A DNA stretch of 64,000 bases from Polychytrium aggregatum (lineage: Eukaryota; Chytridiomycota; Chytridiomycetes; Polychytriales). Positions 3,129 through 64,000 of this stretch are shown one piece after another; the stretch's first letter is position 1, and the number at the start of each line of letters is the position of its first letter. The notes below the pieces were generated by a model. The model ran no database searches and was not told the DNA's origin. It saw nothing but the letters and a program-made list of their open reading frames with translations. Both the position numbers and the translations under genes were made by a program. Where the stretch lies: the NCBI RefSeq assembly GCF_025602895.1, contig NW_026516307.1:102643-166642 (forward strand), in the 5' to 3' direction.

Positions 3129-5791
3129 TTAGTAGCACTGCTTGGGATCACCCAGACCAAGAGACTGAGCGAGGATCTGGAAGACCTCGGTGTTGTCAAC
3201 GGCGCGACGACAGAGGCGAGCAATCGGCGCGTTGCAGTAGAGATCGACGGCCTGGAGGGTGTGGACCGAGGTGACTTCGCCTCCAGAGTTGCGGCCGTTG
3301 AAGTTGAGACCCTCGGGTTCGTCGGGGTCGACGCTGTTGACGGCGACGTTGGGATACTGCTTCTGGAAGAGACCGGTCAGGGCCTTGTTGCTGACGGCGG
3401 GGTTGCGGCCAAGAGGGTTGCCCTTGACATTGTTCTTGCGGATCTGGAAGTTATCGCGGCTCTGGGGGCCATCGACCTTGCCGCCAGCGAGCTTGTACTG
3501 ACCCTGCCAGTTGGTGGGGTTGCCGTTGGCGTCGATGACAATGTCCATCCAGCCAGCAAAGTCGTACTCGCCGATGGCCATGCGCTTCTGGATCTGGAGC
3601 GAGTAGTCGGACGACTGGACGCCGGTCTGGCCGTCGAGGATGCTGCTGTCCGAGGTGGGCTGGTTGTTGAAGAACTTGGTGTCGACGGTGCCCCACACAT
3701 CGTAGCCCTGAGCGTGGTCGGCGGTGAGCAGGATGGCGGTCTGGCCAGGGTAGTGGGCGGCATCGTGGTCAACGACCTTCTTGACGGTGCGGTCGAGCTC
3801 GAGGAGATCGGCCAGACCACGGTCATAGTCCATCGGGTGCATCATCTTGTCGATCGAGGCAGCCTCGGCCATCAGGAACCAACCCTCGGAGCAGCGGGCG
3901 TCCATCAGGTTGATGGCCTTCATGACCATGTCGTCAAAGTTGGGCTGTTTGAGGGCGCTGCCGGTCAGGAAGGGAGAGTTCTTCTTGGTATCGAGGTTCT
4001 CGGTCCAGAGGTTGCGGTCGATCCAGGTCTCCATGTGGCCGTTGGTGAAGACGCCGAGGAGGGGGCCGTTGCCCTGGTAGGAGGAGAGCTGGTCCTTGTC
4101 CGAGACAAAGGTGTAGCCGGCGTTGGTGTAGTCGGCATAGTAGCCGGTGGTGGCATTGCAGGGGCTGGCGCCCTTGCACCAGGCGTTGCCGCCGCCGCCG
4201 AGGAAGACATCGGGGCGGACGGGAGGGGCAGACCAGGGGTACTTTGTGCTGTTGGCGCCGTTGAGGGCCTGGCCGGCAATGACGAGCGAGTCGGAGCGAC
4301 GGCGGGTGTGCGAGAAGACAGCAGCGGGGGTGGCATCCCACAGGGCAGAGGTGGTGACGACACCGACGCAGACGTTGGGGCGGAGACGACGGAGCATCTC
4401 GGCGAGGGTCTCGACCTTGGGGTCGTCGAGGGTGTCGGCCGAGGTATCGGCATAGACGTTGAGGGCGTTGACCCAACCCTTCTGGCCGGTGTGGTAGGCG
4501 GCAGCCGAGTTGGCCGAGTCGGTGATGATGGAGTCGATGCCGTTGGGGGAGACCTTGCCGACGCTGCCGAGGTTCTCGAGGTTGAGGAAGCCGGCACCCT
4601 TGGCGAACTGATATGCGCAATATGCGATGCGTGGTGTGTGATGTGTGGTGTGTGATGTGTGGTATAATGTGTGGTATAATGTGTGGTATAATGTGTGAAA
4701 TGACCCAAGGCGGCGACAGAGTTAGAATGTGGAACCTGATTTCGTGGTCACCTTGGGCCACGATCATGGCCTTGGTCTGAAACTCCACAACAACAGCCAC
4801 AACTACAACACTGATAGTCTTGACTCTTGCTATCGGCTGAACAGGCCGCTCCCACTCCCACTCCCACTCCACCGATGCCGCCAGACTGCTACGCAATCCA
4901 GATTCACACAACGTACCTTGCCGAACTTGGTGGGACGCGAGATGAAGCGCGCGGCGCTGATCATCGCGGGAGCCATACCGTCACCAATGAACATGACGGT
5001 GTTCTTGGCGAGGGGCTTGCAGTAGTTGCGAGTGGACCAGCTGGCCGAGACACGCTCCTTGCCAACGGCAATGGTGACCTGATGGTTCAGTGGAGAGTGG
5101 GCGAGGAGCGAGGCGAGGAACCAGATGGGGAACCAGATGGGGAACCAGATGGGGAACCAGGCGAGGAACCAGATGGGGAACCAGATGGGGAACCAGGGAA
5201 GAGCGAGATGCCGAGTCAGCATTGGGCAACAGGCCGCCGTTGGCTGGCGATCTATGACACAGGCATGCCTGCGAGTACTGAGTGCTGGCAAGCACCGGCA
5301 GGCACTGGCAAGCATCGACAGACCCATCCAGCGACGCACGCACACGCGAGCACAAGACCTACGTTAAAGTCACCAGTGGTCGGCAGAGCAATGTCACGCA
5401 GAGCCAGACGGGTCACACCGACGGGGGTGGTCTTGGGAGGGTTGGCAAAGTACTCCGAGGCGTCCTTCGAGTAGGTGAAGTTCCAGGTCTGGGTGGTCCA
5501 GCTGGTTCCAAAGAACTGGTCCATGGGAACGCCGTTGATCTCGGCGATGATGCCATCAACAGAGGGGGAGGCGGCGTTGCCGTCGTTGTGCAGCTCGATC
5601 GAGATGTCAAAGTGCTGGCCAGTGACAAACTCGGCGCCATCGACAGGGACAACGGCCAGGTTGGAGCCCTGAGGGAGAGCGCGGTAGCGGGAGAACTGAC
5701 CGGGGGTGGGGTTGGAAGGCTGGTACTGGGCAGCGACAGCGCTGACGGCCAGCGAGCCGACCAGCGAGACAGCAAGAAGCTTCATGACCAT
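3129..5791 (-). CDS. secreted alkaline phosphatase, left copy
   Basis: Phosphomonoesterase of the alkaline phosphatase superfamily, probably exported. Exons 5791-5363, 5078-4917 and 4607-3129 give about 689 aa. Residues 1-20 form a signal peptide (MVMKLLAVSLVGSLAVSAVA). An N-terminal domain of about 140 aa precedes the catalytic core. Core motifs are FIGDGM (metal-binding Asp176), TDSANSA (nucleophile Ser228), MAEAASID (Glu445) and TADHAQG (Asp494/His495). The gene is the mirror image of the copy at 8216-10911: both are identical from codon 1 through the codons for the shared CN dipeptide. This copy then reads a diverged tail and stops early, ending KQCY. The start is supported by the signal peptide and by the TATA element about 120 bp upstream. 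Intron 1 holds a 12-bp tandem repeat. Confidence 0.9.
5115..5198. repeat. 12-bp tandem repeat in phosphatase intron 1 (left copy)
   Basis: About seven imperfect copies of the unit GGAACCAGATGG, with two variant GGCGA units, lie within intron 1 of the left alkaline phosphatase. The array is copied exactly in the right gene. Confidence 0.85.
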
Positions 5792-5913
5792 GGTGAAAGC
5801 GAGACAGAGTCTAGAGTCAGAGAGCCAGGTAGCAGAAGGGAGTCACTGTCGAGGCAGGGGACTGTCGGGCAGAGCTGGATCCTTGGCGGCTGGAGGGAGA
5901 GGATCCGACCATG

Positions 5914-5920
5914 TTATATA
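5914..5920 (-). promoter_or_regulatory. TATA element of left alkaline phosphatase
   Basis: TATATAA in the minus orientation, 123 bp upstream of the ATG. It is identical to the element upstream of the right copy. Confidence 0.5.
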
Positions 5921-6301
5921 TCAGCGGAGGCGGGGGGATGGGCCTCGACTTGGGGGGAAGTGATGCACATGCAAGGGGAGGGGCGTCTCGGATGGCCACT
6001 CGCGAGGAGGCTTGGGAGGAGCGTGCAAAGACAGGGTTTTGCTCCTTCTTTCTGTCCTTGGGCCGGGCGAAGTTCGATCCTCAAGCTTGTGGATTCAGAG
6101 GCTGGATGCACGCGCCGCCGGTGTTTTGGCGAGCCAGAGACAAGCCGAGCCGAGCTGTGTACAGAGGCAGGAGAGGCCTTGTGATGCAGCACGGGCATCG
6201 GGCTAAAGTACACAGCCAGATCGAGAGGGCCTGCGCGTTGAACAGAGGCGCATGGTGCGGATCATTGGGAGTGGGGATGATGTATTGTGACAGGTTGGGT
6301 G

Positions 6302-6412
6302 TTGCAGCTGGAGTGGATGGAGTGGATGTAGTGGATGTAGTGGACGGAATGGATGCTGCGGATGCTGCGGATGTTGTGGATGTTGTGGATGTTGTGGATG
6401 TTGTGGATGTTG
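6302..6412. repeat. 9-bp minisatellite (GGATGTTGT), left copy
   Basis: Degenerate tandem array of 6- and 9-bp units (GGATGTTGT, GGATGCTGC, GGATGTAGT) in the promoter region of the left alkaline phosphatase, mirrored in the right arm. It creates long spurious reading frames. Confidence 0.8.
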
Positions 6413-6673
6413 TGCTGGTCGGTTGGGCTGTTGGATAGTGTGTGTTGTTGGTTGGCTCTGCCACTGGAATCGCCGGTGACTGTGGCAAGAGGCAAAATTG
6501 TCAGCCATGGGAGTGCTGTGTCGGTGGGAGATGGGCTCTGTGAACAAGAAGCGCTCCGTGGGCCATCCAAGGCCGCTTGATCTTGCGACTCGTCCCCTCC
6601 CCCCACAAGGACACCCCGGGGGTGGCGGGTGGAGCGCTGTGCTTGGTCGGGAAAGGCGATGACCGCGCGGCAC

Positions 6674-7333
6674 TCGGGGCCGTGATTGAGGAGCAGAACG
6701 GAGCCGCATCTCCACGGGATGCGCTGCTTGCCTACGGCGCATGCTTATCCTCGGTGCAGACGGCTCGCTGGACATGCTGGTCGCTGATGTCGCCGAGTTC
6801 GTCGGCAAGCAGAGAGTGGATCGGGCCCCGCGTGCGAATGGGAAGGGTACCTCGATGTATATACATGCCAAACCTGGGCTTGTTGGGTCGCTCATGGGCC
6901 GCTCAACATCAGCCCACATGCCGACAGCTCAACAGAGGAACCCCAAGCAGGCCAATCCACGATCGAGCTTCTCCCTGACAGTCGAGGGCGTGCGATCGGC
7001 TGTCGTTGTCCTGTCGGCCTGTGTGGGCGGGATCGGTTGTGGTGACGACGGAGCGAACACCCCGATTGGCTACAGCCGAGTGCACACGCTCAGCAACAAG
7101 AGCCCGCGTGCTTCCGCTCCAACGCACGCCGACGGTCTGTCACAAAGCGACTGAACAGGAACGCAAAACCTAGCTGTATATACAACGTGACGCCTTGTGC
7201 GGGTTGCGCCGATGGCCAGCACGCAGGCCGCTTCGCCCTGGCATCCTGCTCCAGCAGTCAAGGTGCCCGGCCTCGTTCTGAAGCTGGACTCACCACAGCA
7301 ATCGATATGGTCGTCTGGCCAACGCTGCCCCCG
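6674..7333. other. unique 660 bp spacer between inverted-repeat arms
   Basis: This is the central segment of the divergent alkaline phosphatase promoter region. It contains a short palindromic TGTATATACA near 6855 and a TATATACAACG near 7175, either of which could act as a core promoter element. Open frames here have no recognisable domain. No mobile-element feature (terminal repeats, transposase) was seen. Confidence 0.6.
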
Positions 7334-7594
7334 GTGCCGCGCGGTCATCGCCTTTCCCGACCAAGCACAGCGCTCCACCCGCCACCCCCGGGGTGTCCTT
7401 GTGGGGGGAGGGGACGAGTCGCAAGATCAAGCGGCCTTGGATGGCCCACGGAGCGCTTCTTGTTCACAGAGCCCATCTCCCACCGACACAGCACTCCCAT
7501 GGCTGACAATTTTGCCTCTTGCCACAGTCACCGGCGATTCCAGTGGCAGAGCCAACCAACAACACACACTATCCAACAGCCCAACCGACCAGCA

Positions 7595-7705
7595 CAACAT
7601 CCACAACATCCACAACATCCACAACATCCACAACATCCGCAGCATCCGCAGCATCCATTCCGTCCACTACATCCACTACATCCACTCCATCCACTCCAGC
7701 TGCAA
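7595..7705. repeat. 9-bp minisatellite (ACAACATCC), right copy
   Basis: Mirror image of the array at 6302-6412, with units ACAACATCC, GCAGCATCC and ACTACATCC. Confidence 0.8.
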
Positions 7706-8086
7706 CACCCAACCTGTCACAATACATCATCCCCACTCCCAATGATCCGCACCATGCGCCTCTGTTCAACGCGCAGGCCCTCTCGATCTGGCTGTGTACT
7801 TTAGCCCGATGCCCGTGCTGCATCACAAGGCCTCTCCTGCCTCTGTACACAGCTCGGCTCGGCTTGTCTCTGGCTCGCCAAAACACCGGCGGCGCGTGCA
7901 TCCAGCCTCTGAATCCACAAGCTTGAGGATCGAACTTCGCCCGGCCCAAGGACAGAAAGAAGGAGCAAAACCCTGTCTTTGCACGCTCCTCCCAAGCCTC
8001 CTCGCGAGTGGCCATCCGAGACGCCCCTCCCCTTGCATGTGCATCACTTCCCCCCAAGTCGAGGCCCATCCCCCCGCCTCCGCTGA

Positions 8087-8093
8087 TATATAA
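8087..8093 (+). promoter_or_regulatory. TATA element of right alkaline phosphatase
   Basis: TATATAA 123 bp upstream of the ATG at 8216. It is identical in sequence and spacing to the left copy. Confidence 0.5.
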
Positions 8094-8215
8094 CATGGTC
8101 GGATCCTCTCCCTCCAGCCGCCAAGGATCCAGCTCTGCCCGACAGTCCCCTGCCTCGACAGTGACTCCCTTCTGCTACCTGGCTCTCTGACTCTAGACTC
8201 TGTCTCGCTTTCACC

Positions 8216-10911
8216 ATGGTCATGAAGCTTCTTGCTGTCTCGCTGGTCGGCTCGCTGGCCGTCAGCGCTGTCGCTGCCCAGTACCAGCCTTCCAACCCCA
8301 CCCCCGGTCAGTTCTCCCGCTACCGCGCTCTCCCTCAGGGCTCCAACCTGGCCGTTGTCCCTGTCGATGGCGCCGAGTTTGTCACTGGCCAGCACTTTGA
8401 CATCTCGATCGAGCTGCACAACGACGGCAACGCCGCCTCCCCCTCTGTTGATGGCATCATCGCCGAGATCAACGGCGTTCCCATGGACCAGTTCTTTGGA
8501 ACCAGCTGGACCACCCAGACCTGGAACTTCACCTACTCGAAGGACGCCTCGGAGTACTTTGCCAACCCTCCCAAGACCACCCCCGTCGGTGTGACCCGTC
8601 TGGCTCTGCGTGACATTGCTCTGCCGACCACTGGTGACTTTAACGTAGGTCTTGTGCTCGCGTGTGCGTGCGTCGCTGGATGGGTCTGTCGATGCTTGCC
8701 AGTGCCTGCCGGTGCTTGCCAGCACTCAGTACTCGCAGGCATGCCTGTGTCATAGATCGCCAGCCAACGGCGGCCTGTTGCCCAATGCTGACTCGGCATC
8801 TCGCTCTTCCCTGGTTCCCCATCTGGTTCCCCATCTGGTTCCTCGCCTGGTTCCCCATCTGGTTCCCCATCTGGTTCCCCATCTGGTTCCTCGCCTCGCT
8901 CCTCGCCCACTCTCCACTGAACCATCAGGTCACCATTGCCGTTGGCAAGGAGCGTGTCTCGGCCAGCTGGTCCACTCGCAACTACTGCAAGCCCCTCGCC
9001 AAGAACACCGTCATGTTCATTGGTGACGGTATGGCTCCCGCGATGATCAGCGCCGCGCGCTTCATCTCGCGTCCCACCAAGTTCGGCAAGGTACGTTGTG
9101 TGAATCTGGATTGCGTAGCAGTCTGGCGGCATCGGTGGAGTGGGAGTGGGAGTGGGAGCGGCCTGTTCAGCCGATAGCAAGAGTCAAGACTATCAGTGTT
9201 GTAGTTGTGGCTGTTGTTGTGGAGTTTCAGACCAAGGCCATGATCGTGGCCCAAGGTGACCACGAAATCAGGTTCCACATTCTAACTCTGTCGCCGCCTT
9301 GGGTCATTTCACACATTATACCACACATTATACCACACATTATACCACACATCACACACCACACATCACACACCACGCATCGCATATTGCGCATATCAGT
9401 TCGCCAAGGGTGCCGGCTTCCTCAACCTCGAGAACCTCGGCAGCGTCGGCAAGGTCTCCCCCAACGGCATCGACTCCATCATCACCGACTCGGCCAACTC
9501 GGCTGCCGCCTACCACACCGGCCAGAAGGGTTGGGTCAACGCCCTCAACGTCTATGCCGATACCTCGGCCGACACCCTCGACGACCCCAAGGTCGAGACC
9601 CTCGCCGAGATGCTCCGTCGTCTCCGCCCCAACGTCTGCGTCGGTGTCGTCACCACCTCTGCCCTGTGGGATGCCACCCCCGCTGCTGTCTTCTCGCACA
9701 CCCGCCGTCGCTCCGACTCGCTCGTCATTGCCGGCCAGGCCCTCAACGGCGCCAACAGCACAAAGTACCCCTGGTCTGCCCCTCCCGTCCGCCCCGATGT
9801 CTTCCTCGGCGGCGGCGGCAACGCCTGGTGCAAGGGCGCCAGCCCCTGCAATGCCACCACCGGCTACTATGCCGACTACACCAACGCCGGCTACACCTTT
9901 GTCTCGGACAAGGACCAGCTCTCCTCCTACCAGGGCAACGGCCCCCTCCTCGGCGTCTTCACCAACGGCCACATGGAGACCTGGATCGACCGCAACCTCT
10001 GGACCGAGAACCTCGATACCAAGAAGAACTCTCCCTTCCTGACCGGCAGCGCCCTCAAACAGCCCAACTTTGACGACATGGTCATGAAGGCCATCAACCT
10101 GATGGACGCCCGCTGCTCCGAGGGTTGGTTCCTGATGGCCGAGGCTGCCTCGATCGACAAGATGATGCACCCGATGGACTATGACCGTGGTCTGGCCGAT
10201 CTCCTCGAGCTCGACCGCACCGTCAAGAAGGTCGTTGACCACGATGCCGCCCACTACCCTGGCCAGACCGCCATCCTGCTCACCGCCGACCACGCTCAGG
10301 GCTACGATGTGTGGGGCACCGTCGACACCAAGTTCTTCAACAACCAGCCCACCTCGGACAGCAGCATCCTCGACGGCCAGACCGGCGTCCAGTCGTCCGA
10401 CTACTCGCTCCAGATCCAGAAGCGCATGGCCATCGGCGAGTACGACTTTGCTGGCTGGATGGACATTGTCATCGACGCCAACGGCAACCCCACCAACTGG
10501 CAGGGTCAGTACAAGCTCGCTGGCGGCAAGGTCGATGGCCCCCAGAGCCGCGATAACTTCCAGATCCGCAAGAACAATGTCAAGGGCAACCCTCTTGGCC
10601 GCAACCCCGCCGTCAGCAACAAGGCCCTGACCGGTCTCTTCCAGAAGCAGTATCCCAACGTCGCCGTCAACAGCGTCGACCCCGACGAACCCGAGGGTCT
10701 CAACTTCAACGGCCGCAACTCTGGAGGCGAAGTCACCTCGGTCCACACCCTCCAGGCCGTCGATCTCTACTGCAACGGCCCCATCGCCGACCTTTGCGGT
10801 CGTGTTGTTGACAACACCGAGGTCTTCCAGATCCTCGCTCAGTCCCTCGGTCTTGGCGATCCCAAGCAGTGCGGTGACAAGCCCTACAAGTGTGTCCCGA
10901 TCAAGAACTAA
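8216..10911 (+). CDS. secreted alkaline phosphatase, right copy
   Basis: Alkaline phosphatase superfamily enzyme releasing inorganic phosphate from phosphomonoesters, probably extracellular or vacuolar. Exons 8216-8644, 8929-9090 and 9400-10911 have phase-0 junctions with consensus GTAGGT and GTACGT donors and give 700 aa. A signal peptide is followed by an N-terminal extension, then the metal and nucleophile motifs FIGDGM (Asp176), TDSANSA (Ser228), MAEAASID (Glu445) and TADHAQG (Asp494/His495). It is transcribed divergently from a near-identical copy at 3129-5791. The C-terminus differs: this copy ends CGDKPYKCVPIKN, with two extra cysteines compared with the left copy. Only the final 45 codons can tell the two proteins apart. 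A phosphate-starvation role is family knowledge; no Pho4-type site was identified with confidence. Confidence 0.92.
8809..8892. repeat. 12-bp tandem repeat in phosphatase intron 1 (right copy)
   Basis: Mirror image of 5115-5198, with unit CCATCTGGTTCC. Confidence 0.85.
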
Positions 10912-13014: not shown

Positions 13015-13674
13015 CGCGCAGACGGATGATCAAGGATGGCTGTGTGGCTGGCGTGCTGGCTGATTCAAAGATGAGCCGGAGGAGATGAGTCTCTGGATGA
13101 GCGGCTTCAAGTAGTCGACGACCCGCAACGAAGACGCGGCTGAGCTGGGCTGGGATCGAGGGTCGATTGACGGCGGCGGGTGGGCAGATCAACAGCAGAC
13201 GGCAAGAGCGACGACGGCGGGCGAGGAAAGCGCTTTGGCCATCCGGCGATCCGATCGCGGCGATGCGGCCTGTGTGGCGGTGGCGGTGCGACGGCTCTGC
13301 TGCGCTCTCGGTCGCTCTCGGTTGCTCTCGGTCGCTCGTCGCGGCTTCTCGTAGCCTCTCGCTATCTCCTCGCTCTCTCCTCGCCATGGTTGGCCGTTTC
13401 GTCAAGCCTGCTGACCCAGTTCGCTGACCGTTTTGCCGGGTCGTTCGTTGCTTACCGTCCGGCTTTCCCCCATCATCTACTCGCCAGATCCACCGCTGAC
13501 GCTCGGTCTGCCCTCGGCATCTCATTTGGTACTTGTCGCGCCTTCTGATGCATGCAGTTTCTGCCCCCAGTGGCCGAAGCTCGTGGCGGCTTTCTCGCTG
13601 ACGCAACCTTTGTCTGCGGCTCATCGACCCAGGCCCAAAACCAGATCTATCCTCCTGCTGCTCATCTGCTCGTC
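13015..13674. other. divergent promoter region, SGNH-like / THI6
   Basis: This 660 bp segment lies between two divergent starts. It includes a CTCTCGGT-type direct repeat at about 13312-13385. No thiamine-pyrophosphate riboswitch core could be recognised. An in-frame upstream ATG at 13552 could extend THI6 by 41 residues. Confidence 0.5.
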
Positions 13675-15834
13675 ATGACCAAACCCCAAGTTGACTACAC
13701 CCTCTATCTCGTCACGGATCGCTCTTTGCTTCCCGCTGGCACCACGCTTGCCTCGTCCGTCAAGGCTGCCATCGAGGGAGGCGCTACCCTCGTCCAGCTC
13801 CGCGAGAAGAATGTCTCTACCAAAGAATTCGTCGAGACCGCCCAGCAGGTCCTTGCGATCACCCGAGCTGCAGGTGTGCCGCTTTTCATCAACGACCGCA
13901 TCGACGTTGCCCTGGCGGTCGACGCCGACGGTGTTCACATCGGCCAAAGCGACATGCCGGTGGACATTGCCCGTGGCCTCCTTGGTTCGACCAAGGTCCT
14001 CGGCGTGACTGTCGAGAACCCGCAGCAGGCCTGGGATGCCATCCAGAAGGGGGCCGACTACATCGGCACCTCGGCTGTCTTTCCGACCGGCACCAAGAAG
14101 CACGCCGACGACCACCAGTTCCTTGGCCCTGTCGGTGTCAAGGCGATCCTTGAGTCGGTCCGCTACACCGACATTCCTGTCGTGACCATTGGTGGCCTCA
14201 ATGCCGACAATGTCGAGCAGGTTCTGTTGGAATCGGCCGTCGAGAAGAGCGGCCACAAGCCCGCCAAGCGACTCTCTGGCGTCGCCATCGTCTCGGCCAT
14301 CATCGCCAAGGAAGACCCAAAGGCCGCTTCGCAGGTACTGGCGGCCAAGATCCGTCCGATCGTCTCGGGCACGGCCCATGCCGCCGTTGAGCGATCGCTC
14401 GTCTGGAAGCGCCCCGATGCCGAACAGGCGCTCGTCGACAAGATTGCCAACGCATTCATTCAGCTGCGTGAGCGAAAGCCTCTCGTGCACAACATCACCA
14501 ACTACGGTAAGGTCTGCGCCTCTGGCAGGGACGCGGTTGAATATGTATACCACCATGTCGGGTTTCCCGAGATCCATCGCCAGGGTCCGAGACGGCTCTT
14601 ATAAGGGCACTTGAGTCGATCTGGAGAGTGTTTCCGCGAGCTTGGAAGTCCGCTTGTCGATGTCTTTGCATATTCTCTGCGGCGAATGTGCCCCGCTTCT
14701 CATGGCTGTAGACGATCTGACCGAACGGACCATGTGCGATGTCAAAGGCGCATGTCAAAGGCACAGAGTCAATGTCTTCGCACGAGCACTCTGCACAAGT
14801 CATGCTTCCTGACCATCATATTCTCATTCCTTCGCCCGACAGTTGTCATGAACGACACCGCCAATGTCATTCTGCACATTGGCGGTCTTCCTGTCATGGC
14901 CCATGCGTAAGATGACACTGCCTGCGAACGCTTGTGCGCACGAACGCATGCACATGCGACCCGCCGGGTTGATCGGGCCCGACATCGCTTGACGTTCTCT
15001 GCGCTGTCCCCTCGGTCCAGTCACAACGAGGCTGCCAAAATCACAGGCATCTCCAATGCCCTTGTTATCAACATTGGCACGCTCGACGACCCCAAGGTCC
15101 AATCGATGCACATCTCTGCCAAGCAGGTATGGCCCTTGAATGATACCCGGTGCTTACAGGCACCCTCCCTGTCTGCACGACGCATATCGATATGGCTCTG
15201 TGTTCGATGCTTACAACCGCAATTTGCTTCCAACACATAACCAAACGCAACGTCGCGGCTCCAGGCCAACGAAAAGGGAATCCCGATCGTCCTGGATCCA
15301 GTCGGTGCTGGCGCGACATCCTACCGCACCGAAACCACCCTTAAGCTCCTGACCGAAAACAAGATCGACATTGTCAAGGGCAACGCCGGCGAGGTTGGCA
15401 TCATTGCCGGCTGCGGTGGCGTCGAGATGCGGGGTGTCGAGAGTGTTGGAACGCTCTCGCAGCCGGAGTTTGTTGTCGAGAGCCTGGCCAAGCGCTTTAG
15501 CAACGTCTTTGCCATCTCGGGCAAGACCGATTACATCTCTAATGGCGCTCAGACTGTGGCCGCCTCCAACGGAAACGAGTGGCTCGGAACCCTGACCGGC
15601 ACGGGCTGCTCAACGACGACCCTCGTGGCCAGCTTTGCCGCGGTCGAGAAGGACCATGTTGTCGCCACGGTTGCTGGTATCGTCGCCATGGGTGTTGCTG
15701 CCGAGCTTGCTGTTGAGTCTGGACGTGTTGCCGGTCCTGCAAGCTTCAAGGCTGCCCTCTACGATGCCCTGTACCATTTGAACGCCGATGCCATCCGACT
15801 GCGCGCCCGCGTTGAGATTTTGAAGAGCGCCTAG
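13675..15834 (+). CDS. THI6: bifunctional thiamine-phosphate synthase / hydroxyethylthiazole kinase
   Basis: Fungal Thi6, catalysing the last assembly step of thiamine monophosphate (N-terminal ThiE domain joins HMP-PP and HET-P) and phosphorylation of hydroxyethylthiazole (C-terminal ThiM domain). Exons 13675-14506, 14843-14906, 15021-15126 and 15265-15834 give 523 aa, close to the approximately 540 aa of yeast Thi6. ThiE features are YLVTDR at the start, VQLREKN, FINDRIDVA, GVHIGQSD, YIGTSAVFPTGTKK and PVVTIGGLNADN. The ThiM half begins at PLVHNITNYVV and MNDTAN and includes NIGTL, VLDPVGAGA, NAGE and the catalytic-loop motif GTGCSTTT. Exon phases agree at every junction. The ATG at 13675 places the first beta strand at the usual distance; an upstream in-frame ATG (13552) could add a 41-residue leader. 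Confidence 0.95.
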
Positions 15835-50522: not shown

Positions 50523-51608
50523 AGTGTGGAAGCGAGAATCCGGGCAGATGGGGTGAGAGAGGGCACAGACCGGCGCAGGCAGCAACCGTGCCCCACCCCG
50601 ATCAACATCAGGATGGATCTGGACAGATCTGACTGGCGACTCGCAGTCTTCATCCGGAGATTGCCAAAGTGGTCAGCCCAGGCACTTGGAGCACACTTGC
50701 GAGGTGTTGAACTCGTTCGTCGAGACTATTTTGCGTTGGCTATGAATGATGGTATTGCACCGCATCACAGAATGGTCATGACCAGCCCGCGATAACATTG
50801 GGTAACAAACCATTCGGACAATGACCAAAGTGTTCAAGGGCTCATCACGCCTTCGGCCGCAATCGCAGCTCGCCCTGGCCACATCGTTCCCACAGTCAGA
50901 TTGCCACCTCCTCCGCCATCGAGTGTTGTTTTGCCTTTGCATCGCTGATTGGCACTGTATCGACAGTTGAATCAACCGGTGTGCTCAACGCCCGCTTCTC
51001 TGACTATCGAGTTGACATCACTTTTCTTGCTGCATCATCCCTTTGCTTAGCGGTAGTGCGTCCCCACCAACTCAAACAGCATACTCGAGGGTCCTCTCCA
51101 ATCGCCACACAACCGCATGCAGCTTTGTCAGGCATTAGGTTTGCGTCGTCTCGGATCGCACAGTATCCCCCCCCTCGCAGGCATCCTGCGTCCTCTCGAG
51201 GGCATACCGCTTCGATTTGGAAACGTCTGCTCAGAAATGTTTGGTGCTGGAGGACAGCACATCCACCGAACCGTTTCCTTCCTCCGAACAGCAATCAGCC
51301 AAACTCTCAGAGTCCTCAGCGAGGGCAAGCGGCTGATAAGCCCCCAAGAGCAGATACACCCTCGGCAACGACGGTCGCCTCCCACTTCATCTCCCATCCG
51401 TCTCAGGCTGGCTGGCACCGACATTTACGATTTGCAGACGACTCTGTCGATATACATCCTGCTTCAGCGGCACCAAGCCAAACCTGGAAACCCATCGCCA
51501 GCGCTCTGACCATCGCAGCAGCAGCCACATTCGCATCCGCGCTGACCGAACCAGCCTGCTGTCCAGCTCGATTCAGAATCACTTACTTCCTTGTCAAGAA
51601 CTCAGTAC
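50523..51608. other. divergent intergenic region BBS5 / PA-RING 2
   Basis: About 1.09 kb between divergent starts. Large open frames at 50.9-51.6 kb lack domain features and run into the RING gene in another frame. No RNA gene was seen. Confidence 0.5.
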
Positions 51609-63212: not shown

Positions 63213-64000
63213 ATGCTCCTATCCAGACAAAGCCTTTCCCTGGCTGCCTCGCAGGCCTCCCTCGTCTCGGCCGCCGTCCGTGTCCCTCGGGCAGGCCTCG
63301 CCACAGTGGTCCCTGCTGCTGCCACTTCGCGCACCTACGGCGGTCTGAAGGACGAGGACCGTATCTTCACCAACCTGTACGGCCGCCCACGACTTCAAGC
63401 TGAACGGAGCTCTGAAGCGCGGAGACTGGCACAAGACCAAGGAAATCCTGCTCAAGGGCGACAAGTGGATCATTGACCAGGTCAAGACCTCTGGCCTCCG
63501 TGGCCGTGGTGGTGCCGGCTTCCCTTCCGGCCTGAAGTGGAGCTTCATGAACAAGCCCCCCGGTGGCCCCGTCGATACCCGTCCCCGCTACCTCGTCATC
63601 AATGCCGATGAGGGCGAGCCCGGAACCTGCAAGGATCGCGAGATCCTCCGCCACGACCCCCATAAGCTCGTCGAGGGCTGTCTCGTTGCTGGCCGCGCCA
63701 TGAACGCTAACGCCGCGTACATCTACATCCGCGGTGAGTTCTACAACGAAGCCTCGAACCTCCAGATTGCCATCAACGAGGCCTACAAGGCTGGCCTGAT
63801 CGGCAAGAACGCCTGCGGCAGTGGCTACGACTTTGATGTCTACATCCACCGTGGCGCCGGTGCCTACATTTGCGGTGAGGAGACCTCTCTGATCGAGTCG
63901 ATCGAGGGCAAGCAGGGCAAGCCCAGACTGAAGCCTCCGTTCCCTGCCGACGTCGGCCTGTTCGGCTGCCCCACCACCGTCGCCAACGTCGAGACCGTTG
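63213..64000 (+). CDS. NDUFV1: NADH:ubiquinone oxidoreductase 51 kDa subunit (complex I), 5' part, with +1 frameshift
   Basis: FMN- and NADH-binding subunit of mitochondrial complex I; the window ends after about 260 of the expected approximately 490 residues. Residues 1-40 are a mitochondrial presequence rich in Ser/Ala/Arg. The mature start [16 protein letters not shown] is conserved. Directly after it the frame shifts: [14 protein letters not shown] continues one base later, because the run GGCCGCCCAC holds one C more than expected (about 63383-63389). Downstream frame features: [13 protein letters not shown] (FMN/NADH glycine loop), [34 protein letters not shown] and PRLKPPFPA. No splice signals can absorb one base here, so it is either a sequence error or a damaged allele. 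Confidence 0.9.
63383..63389 (+). other. apparent one-base insertion (frameshift) in complex I gene
   Basis: The presequence frame reads Gly-Arg-Pro-Arg, while the conserved protein requires Gly-Arg-His-Asp. Removing one C of the CCC run restores conservation on both sides. This is typical of a homopolymer indel. Confidence 0.8.

Follow-up and report, generated by a model that had tools for sequence, protein, structure and literature searches.

A seemingly old inverted pair of alkaline phosphatase genes in Polychytrium aggregatum, likely homogenized by recombination between its arms, with a spacer assembled in both orientations

How do two divergent alkaline phosphatase genes come to lie in an inverted repeat that is free of mismatches over 3,444 bp, introns and minisatellites included, and yet end in different C-termini? 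The locus belongs to a stretch of 64,000 nucleotides (the window), which corresponds to C8:102643-166642 in an assembly of 64.7 Mb and 418 contigs; this one assembly of one genome is the whole data set. The original prediction, made from the letters of the window, had attributed the identity of the arms to a very recent duplication, to ongoing gene conversion between them, or to an assembly fold-back. We weigh these readings using a second contig, C135, which contains the same region in the same order with the same inverted pair.

The symmetry is as exact as predicted: from 3230/10777 to 6673/7334, every pair of positions with a sum of 14007 is complementary. A repeat search without gaps carries the homology past this core, and all 19 arm-versus-arm mismatches fall outside the core, 17 at the outer end and two at the inner edge. 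The parts of the repeat, none of which is assigned a strand, are as follows.

3135..6680: left arm, homologous extent; 3,546 nt, differing from the right arm at 19 positions
7327..10872: right arm, homologous extent; likewise 3,546 nt, from the repeat search and the four-arm alignment
3230..6673: left homogenized core; 0 mismatches in 3,444 bp to 7334-10777, inverted
7334..10777: right homogenized core, the mirror of the left core
3135..3229: left outer tail, which escapes homogenization and codes for the C-terminus; 17 arm-specific sites, all common to the C135 haplotype
10778..10872: right outer tail, which escapes homogenization, from the four-arm alignment and dS/dN counting
6681..7326: unique spacer of 646 bp between the arms; two assembly matches, C8 (+) and C135 (-)

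The prediction that the outer ends differ holds, but the outer 95 bp of each arm, rather than being just unrelated DNA, are coding sequence whose homology persists despite divergence. In a blastn scan of the 64-kb window (word 16, E<=1e-20) this was the sole repeat pair, in either relative orientation, to reach 200 bp; as such, the inverted repeat is far beyond chance. The scan took in the window plus 57.7 kb of C135 and 10 kb of C8, and the only pairs of this size in it were the present one and its C135 counterpart.

Each arm encodes one gene, transcribed outward, with different C-termini. The start codons, at 5791 (-) and 8216 (+), both face the spacer, so the genes are divergent. The exon borders of both genes were placed by hand, from sequence alone, giving the following features.

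3129..5791, minus strand: left alkaline phosphatase gene, 689 aa; exons 5791-5363, 5078-4917 and 4607-3129, with the PF00245 match within exon 3
8216..10911, plus strand: right alkaline phosphatase gene, 700 aa; exons 8216-8644, 8929-9090 and 9400-10911, with the stop at 10911
5079..5362, minus strand: intron 1 of the left gene, GT-AG, with a 12-bp-unit array at 5117-5196
4608..4916, minus strand: intron 2 of the left gene, GT-AG, with 12-bp- and 7/14-bp-unit arrays at 4626-4697
6313..6414, no strand: array of 9-bp units upstream of the left gene, with its mirror copy at 7593-7694

Both introns are mirrored on the right. This gene model bears out the divergent phosphatase genes, the two introns per gene and the 9-bp promoter minisatellite of the original prediction; its intronic 12-bp array is also present, though in both introns and not in one.

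The right protein matches PF00245 over residues 167-680 of 700 (E=1.2e-45; 156.6 bits versus a curated cut-off of 24.4). Among solved structures, its closest relatives are chains of alkaline phosphatase, for example 1kh4 and 1alk, presumably E. coli PhoA. The motifs IGDGM, TDSANSA, EAASIDK..H and TADH align to the 1kh4 chain, while the position of the final histidine, in SVHTLQ, was judged only by eye; residues in these aligned motifs may act as the catalytic nucleophile and metal ligands. By eye, the N-terminus looks like a signal peptide. The body of the gene, the introns and 0.9 kb of upstream region are the same in both genes. Four of the 32 final residues that align differ between the proteins, whose ends are also unlike (QCY versus QCGDKPYKCVPIKN), and beyond the outer tail the two C-termini are unrelated.

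A search of the genome returned 12 exon matches, equal to three exons in each of four genes, two here and two on C135, and as far as this search reaches there is no third phosphatase paralogue in the assembly. A wider phosphatase family was considered as a conversion donor and rejected, as the search gave only these four genes. We also scanned the 889 bp upstream of the left ATG together with the spacer for CACGTG and CACGTK, which we assume to be phosphate-response motifs; CACGTG is absent, and the spacer contains one CACGTK-type match.

Some neighboring features were recorded along the way. The intron-2 array (4619-4698, and its mirror copy) resembles minisatellites elsewhere in the genome, such as C57:297134-297366 and others on C359 and C261. 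Adjoining reading frames contain TMP-TENI (13552-14601) and HK (15427-15831) domains, a side-by-side arrangement that resembles the THI6 fusion and suggests a fungus. A gene for the NADH dehydrogenase flavoprotein 1 subunit (63601-64000) is cut off where both the window and contig C8 stop, a point past which C135 extends. Searches of the window gave no tRNA and no Rfam family that reached the gathering score.

Beside the repeat, the flanks of C8 and C135 have the same orientation and differ by 4 SNPs in 3,134 bp and 13 in 9,980 bp, or 17 SNPs in 13,114 bp, with five gap runs besides. As 12 of the 17 are transitions, these look like true allelic differences. Among the matches listed for 2 kb of the window well away from the repeat, one is nearly identical over the full length, on C135; for a 3-kb piece of contig C57 there is no such partner. 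On these sequences, the simplest reading is that C8 and C135 are alleles in a partly phased assembly of a diploid, and we call them haplotypes below; it is possible that they instead represent a recent segmental duplication.

Divergence between the two contigs is patchy. Over the 3.6 kb that immediately precede the window, they are 3.3% apart (118 mismatches in 3,619 columns), versus 0.13% beside the phosphatase pair, and over the 74 kb of C8 compared the longest gap between neighboring variants is 3,527 bp. The more divergent stretch surrounds an 809-aa reading frame (L030:6805-9234; C8:99447-101876) with a Cas12f1-like TNB zinc-ribbon domain (PF07282, E=1.7e-9) and no PDB sequence match at E<=0.1, which to us is reminiscent of Fanzor/TnpB proteins. 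The zinc-ribbon part of this frame includes, at L030:8990-9040, a copy of a 51-bp stretch that also occurs in the window (50678-50728), where by eye it stands alone without the remaining Fanzor-like gene. The window copy is matched exactly at 26 or more other places in the genome besides its C135 partner (40 of 685 candidates scored). Near this fragment is a second dispersed repeat (50731-50843), 81-90% identical at 16 or more other places.

Aligning both arms of both haplotypes divides the repeat into zones with distinct patterns of variation. In the outer tail (3135-3229), all 17 variable sites are arm-specific and common to both haplotypes. In the core (3230-6673) the pattern is reversed: nine SNPs (3711, 3714, 3747, 4652, 4654, 5161, 5162, 5164 and 6056) are haplotype-specific and each is common to both arms, as are two haplotype-specific indels, one of 1 bp and one that makes intron 2 of the left gene 58 bp longer in its array on both C135 arms. 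No core SNP is arm-specific across haplotypes. One is private, at 5905 in the right arm of C135, and the intron-1 array differs in length by 48 bp between the C135 arms. At the inner-edge sites 6674-6675, the left arm of C8 agrees with the right arm of C135, and the right arm of C8 with the left arm of C135. Minisatellite arrays contain or border five of the nine core SNPs; only four shared SNPs lie outside arrays, and three of these, within 37 bp, perhaps represent one event.

When whole arms are counted, there are 11 and 12 differences between same-side arms of C8 and C135, and 19 and 20 between the left and right arm of a single contig. Same-side arms are closer by this measure because of the outer tails and inner edge; greater likeness within a chromosome than between homologues is found in the core only and not in the outer tails. 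The border between core and tail is sharp, mismatch rising from 0% to about 45% (13 differences in the 29 bp adjoining the core).

The outer tails provide an indication of age. In the outer 96 aligned coding bases, Nei-Gojobori counting gives 12 synonymous and 5 nonsynonymous steps, with dS about 0.83 and dN 0.07 from the small sample of 24 synonymous sites, and this coding tail seems to have been under purifying selection. Because the diverged tails are common to both haplotypes, the duplication appears old; the sequences indicate that the pair is much older than the identity of its core implies and that it predates the haplotypes.

The core, whose variants are haplotype-specific yet common to both arms, has therefore been homogenized, and the comparison makes gene conversion between the arms, the second of the predicted explanations, very likely. 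With sites taken as exchangeable, the perfect 17/9 split would arise by chance with a probability of 3e-7, a value that serves as a guide only since the sites are not independent. Had the arms evolved without conversion since the haplotype split, the divergence of the flanks would predict about 8.3 arm-private SNPs outside arrays; one is seen (P=0.002). From the four shared SNPs and the one private SNP, a simple neutral model that takes the contigs as alleles, conversion as unbiased and SNPs as independent gives a maximum-likelihood per-site ratio of conversion to point mutation of about 1.3e4 (interval 3e3 to 2e5), which is an order of magnitude at best because three of the four shared SNPs lie within 37 bp. 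The number of conversions required after the haplotype split is at least one, not many. The original prediction took persistence of the repeat as a possible sign of selection for phosphatase dosage; conversion alone would explain the persistence of arm identity. The G+C content is 60.8% in the core, 61.3% in the spacer, 56.4-56.9% in the flanks and 57.8% in the whole window; GC-biased conversion as the source of core G+C is suggestive at most, because much of the core is coding and the unhomogenized spacer is equally G+C-rich.

These observations bear on two readings in which conversion has a smaller part. The 3,444 mismatch-free base pairs are what a very recent inverted duplication would give with conversion unnecessary, but the outer tails of these arms show 17 differences, the same ones on both contigs, which places the pair before the haplotypes, and within each haplotype the core SNPs are common to both arms. 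With these tail differences and their dS, the recent duplication of the original prediction is not sustained and must be regarded as highly improbable. In another reading, one old paralogue was overwritten by the other in a single recent event, with no continuing process. The sharp mismatch border at the core edge is what the end of such a tract would give, but core variants that separate the haplotypes are found in both arms, so at least one further homogenizing event followed the haplotype split, and we consider a lone overwrite improbable.

Beyond conversion, the spacer differs between the contigs in orientation. Together with its edges, the C135 spacer aligns to that of C8 without mismatch over 668 bp, with one terminal gap base, when inverted, versus 324 mismatches in 582 when not inverted. 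In the whole-genome search all 646 bases match at 100% on C8 (+) and on C135 (-), with both flanks on the same strand, so at the level of the assembly both orientations occur, one per contig. Inner-edge sites 6674-6675 switch arms together with the spacer. A mobile-element origin of the spacer was considered and set aside, as it has only the two genome matches, one on C8 and one on C135.

The inverted spacer and moved inner-edge sites fit a crossover between the arms, but a wrong walk through the assembly would leave the same pattern. In that case conversion would be real and the inverted spacer on C135 (or C8) would result from a graph walked through the wrong arm. The arms are 3.5-3.6 kb long with cores identical or nearly so, the letters of the spacer are the same in both contigs, and its orientation is taken from contigs and not from reads; repeat-induced misassembly would randomize exactly this orientation, and an assembler unable to span a 3.5-kb arm could flip the spacer, a switch to which the core variants are blind. 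Mild evidence against such an error is that the contigs were kept apart across about 3.5 kb without a variant and that in the C135 arms the assembly preserved a private SNP and unequal lengths of array, so it may well have been able to resolve arms this long; as the longest variant gap is 3,527 bp, phasing is no proof of overlaps longer than an arm. On balance we regard an assembly error as unlikely, and the assembled contigs suggest that the spacer inversion is probably real in the organism. The mirror symmetry of the window could also reflect a fold-back, in which a contig with one arm only was mirrored in assembly. This can be set aside with near certainty: the 646-bp spacer is unique and asymmetric, the outer flanks and C-termini are different, and a second contig has the same structure, with C135 arms whose cores are told apart by one SNP and a 48-bp difference in array length.

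Taken together, the sequences make it likely that an old inverted gene pair has been homogenized by recombination between its arms, through conversion and at least one spacer-flipping crossover. As a possible mechanism, a break in one arm would be repaired with the other arm, on the same chromosome or the sister, as template. Most repairs would copy sequence, that is, convert, and the arms would stay identical. A crossover outcome would invert all that lies between the exchange points, flipping the 646-bp spacer and the inner arm edges. Since about 0.9 kb of identical upstream DNA precedes the spacer at each gene, a flip changes distal surroundings only, and we infer that it is probably near neutral, changing only which gene adjoins which end of the distal spacer. 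It is very unlikely that the flip is a frequent reversible switch in which distal control elements in the spacer set which phosphatase is more expressed.

Several known systems have features in common with this locus. On Saccharomyces chromosome XIV there is a 24-kb flip/flop region with homogenized inverted repeats of ~4 kb (Salzberg et al. 2022, PMC9731477), for which the authors propose conversion with occasional crossover; the paper also reports 0 flips among about 53,800 mitoses and 950 meioses, which makes flipping there a rare event on a laboratory timescale. As in Saccharomyces, the repeats here are gene-bearing (there about 4 kb and homogenized within strains) and the interior occurs in both orientations. 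However, the Saccharomyces interior is 24 kb with 15 genes and its pattern, as described there, is genus-wide, whereas the present interior measures 646 bp, the genes code for alkaline phosphatases, and a single assembly has the two orientations in two of its contigs. As far as the assembly shows, the present locus belongs to the known Saccharomyces flip/flop type, and its particular features are the small spacer and the presence of both orientations within one assembly.

In Drosophila, Hsp70Aa/Ab, Hsp70Ba/Bb and Amy-p/Amy-d are palindromic pairs with ectopic conversion, and the Hsp70 pairs are reported to predate the species split (PMC3924832). These are likewise mirror-image duplicate genes that have been homogenized, but Amy homogenization is described there as confined to coding sequence, whereas here it extends to introns, arrays and 0.9 kb of upstream DNA and spares only the coding tail at the 3' end. 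Human inversions, according to PMC3961182, have breakpoints inside highly identical inverted repeats, some with gene pairs, and are often recurrent; here, by contrast, the inverted segment comprises just a small intergenic spacer with the inner portions of the arms. In the diploid fungus Candida albicans, long repeat sequences are sites of rearrangement (PMC6591007), and the present locus likewise has long repeats at a probable rearrangement site. One literature search surfaced a dinoflagellate review and no earlier report of a fungal alkaline phosphatase gene with an inverted repeat and gene conversion.

If the switch reading were true, one culture would be a mix of both states, resembling phase variation but arising by ordinary homologous recombination in a eukaryote. 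A single assembly presents at this one locus three signatures that usually need many strains, namely old edges, homogenized cores and an inverted interior, and the spacer is small enough for flipping to be traceable by single reads or PCR. The locus is also a warning that near-identical gene pairs are not to be taken for recent duplicates.
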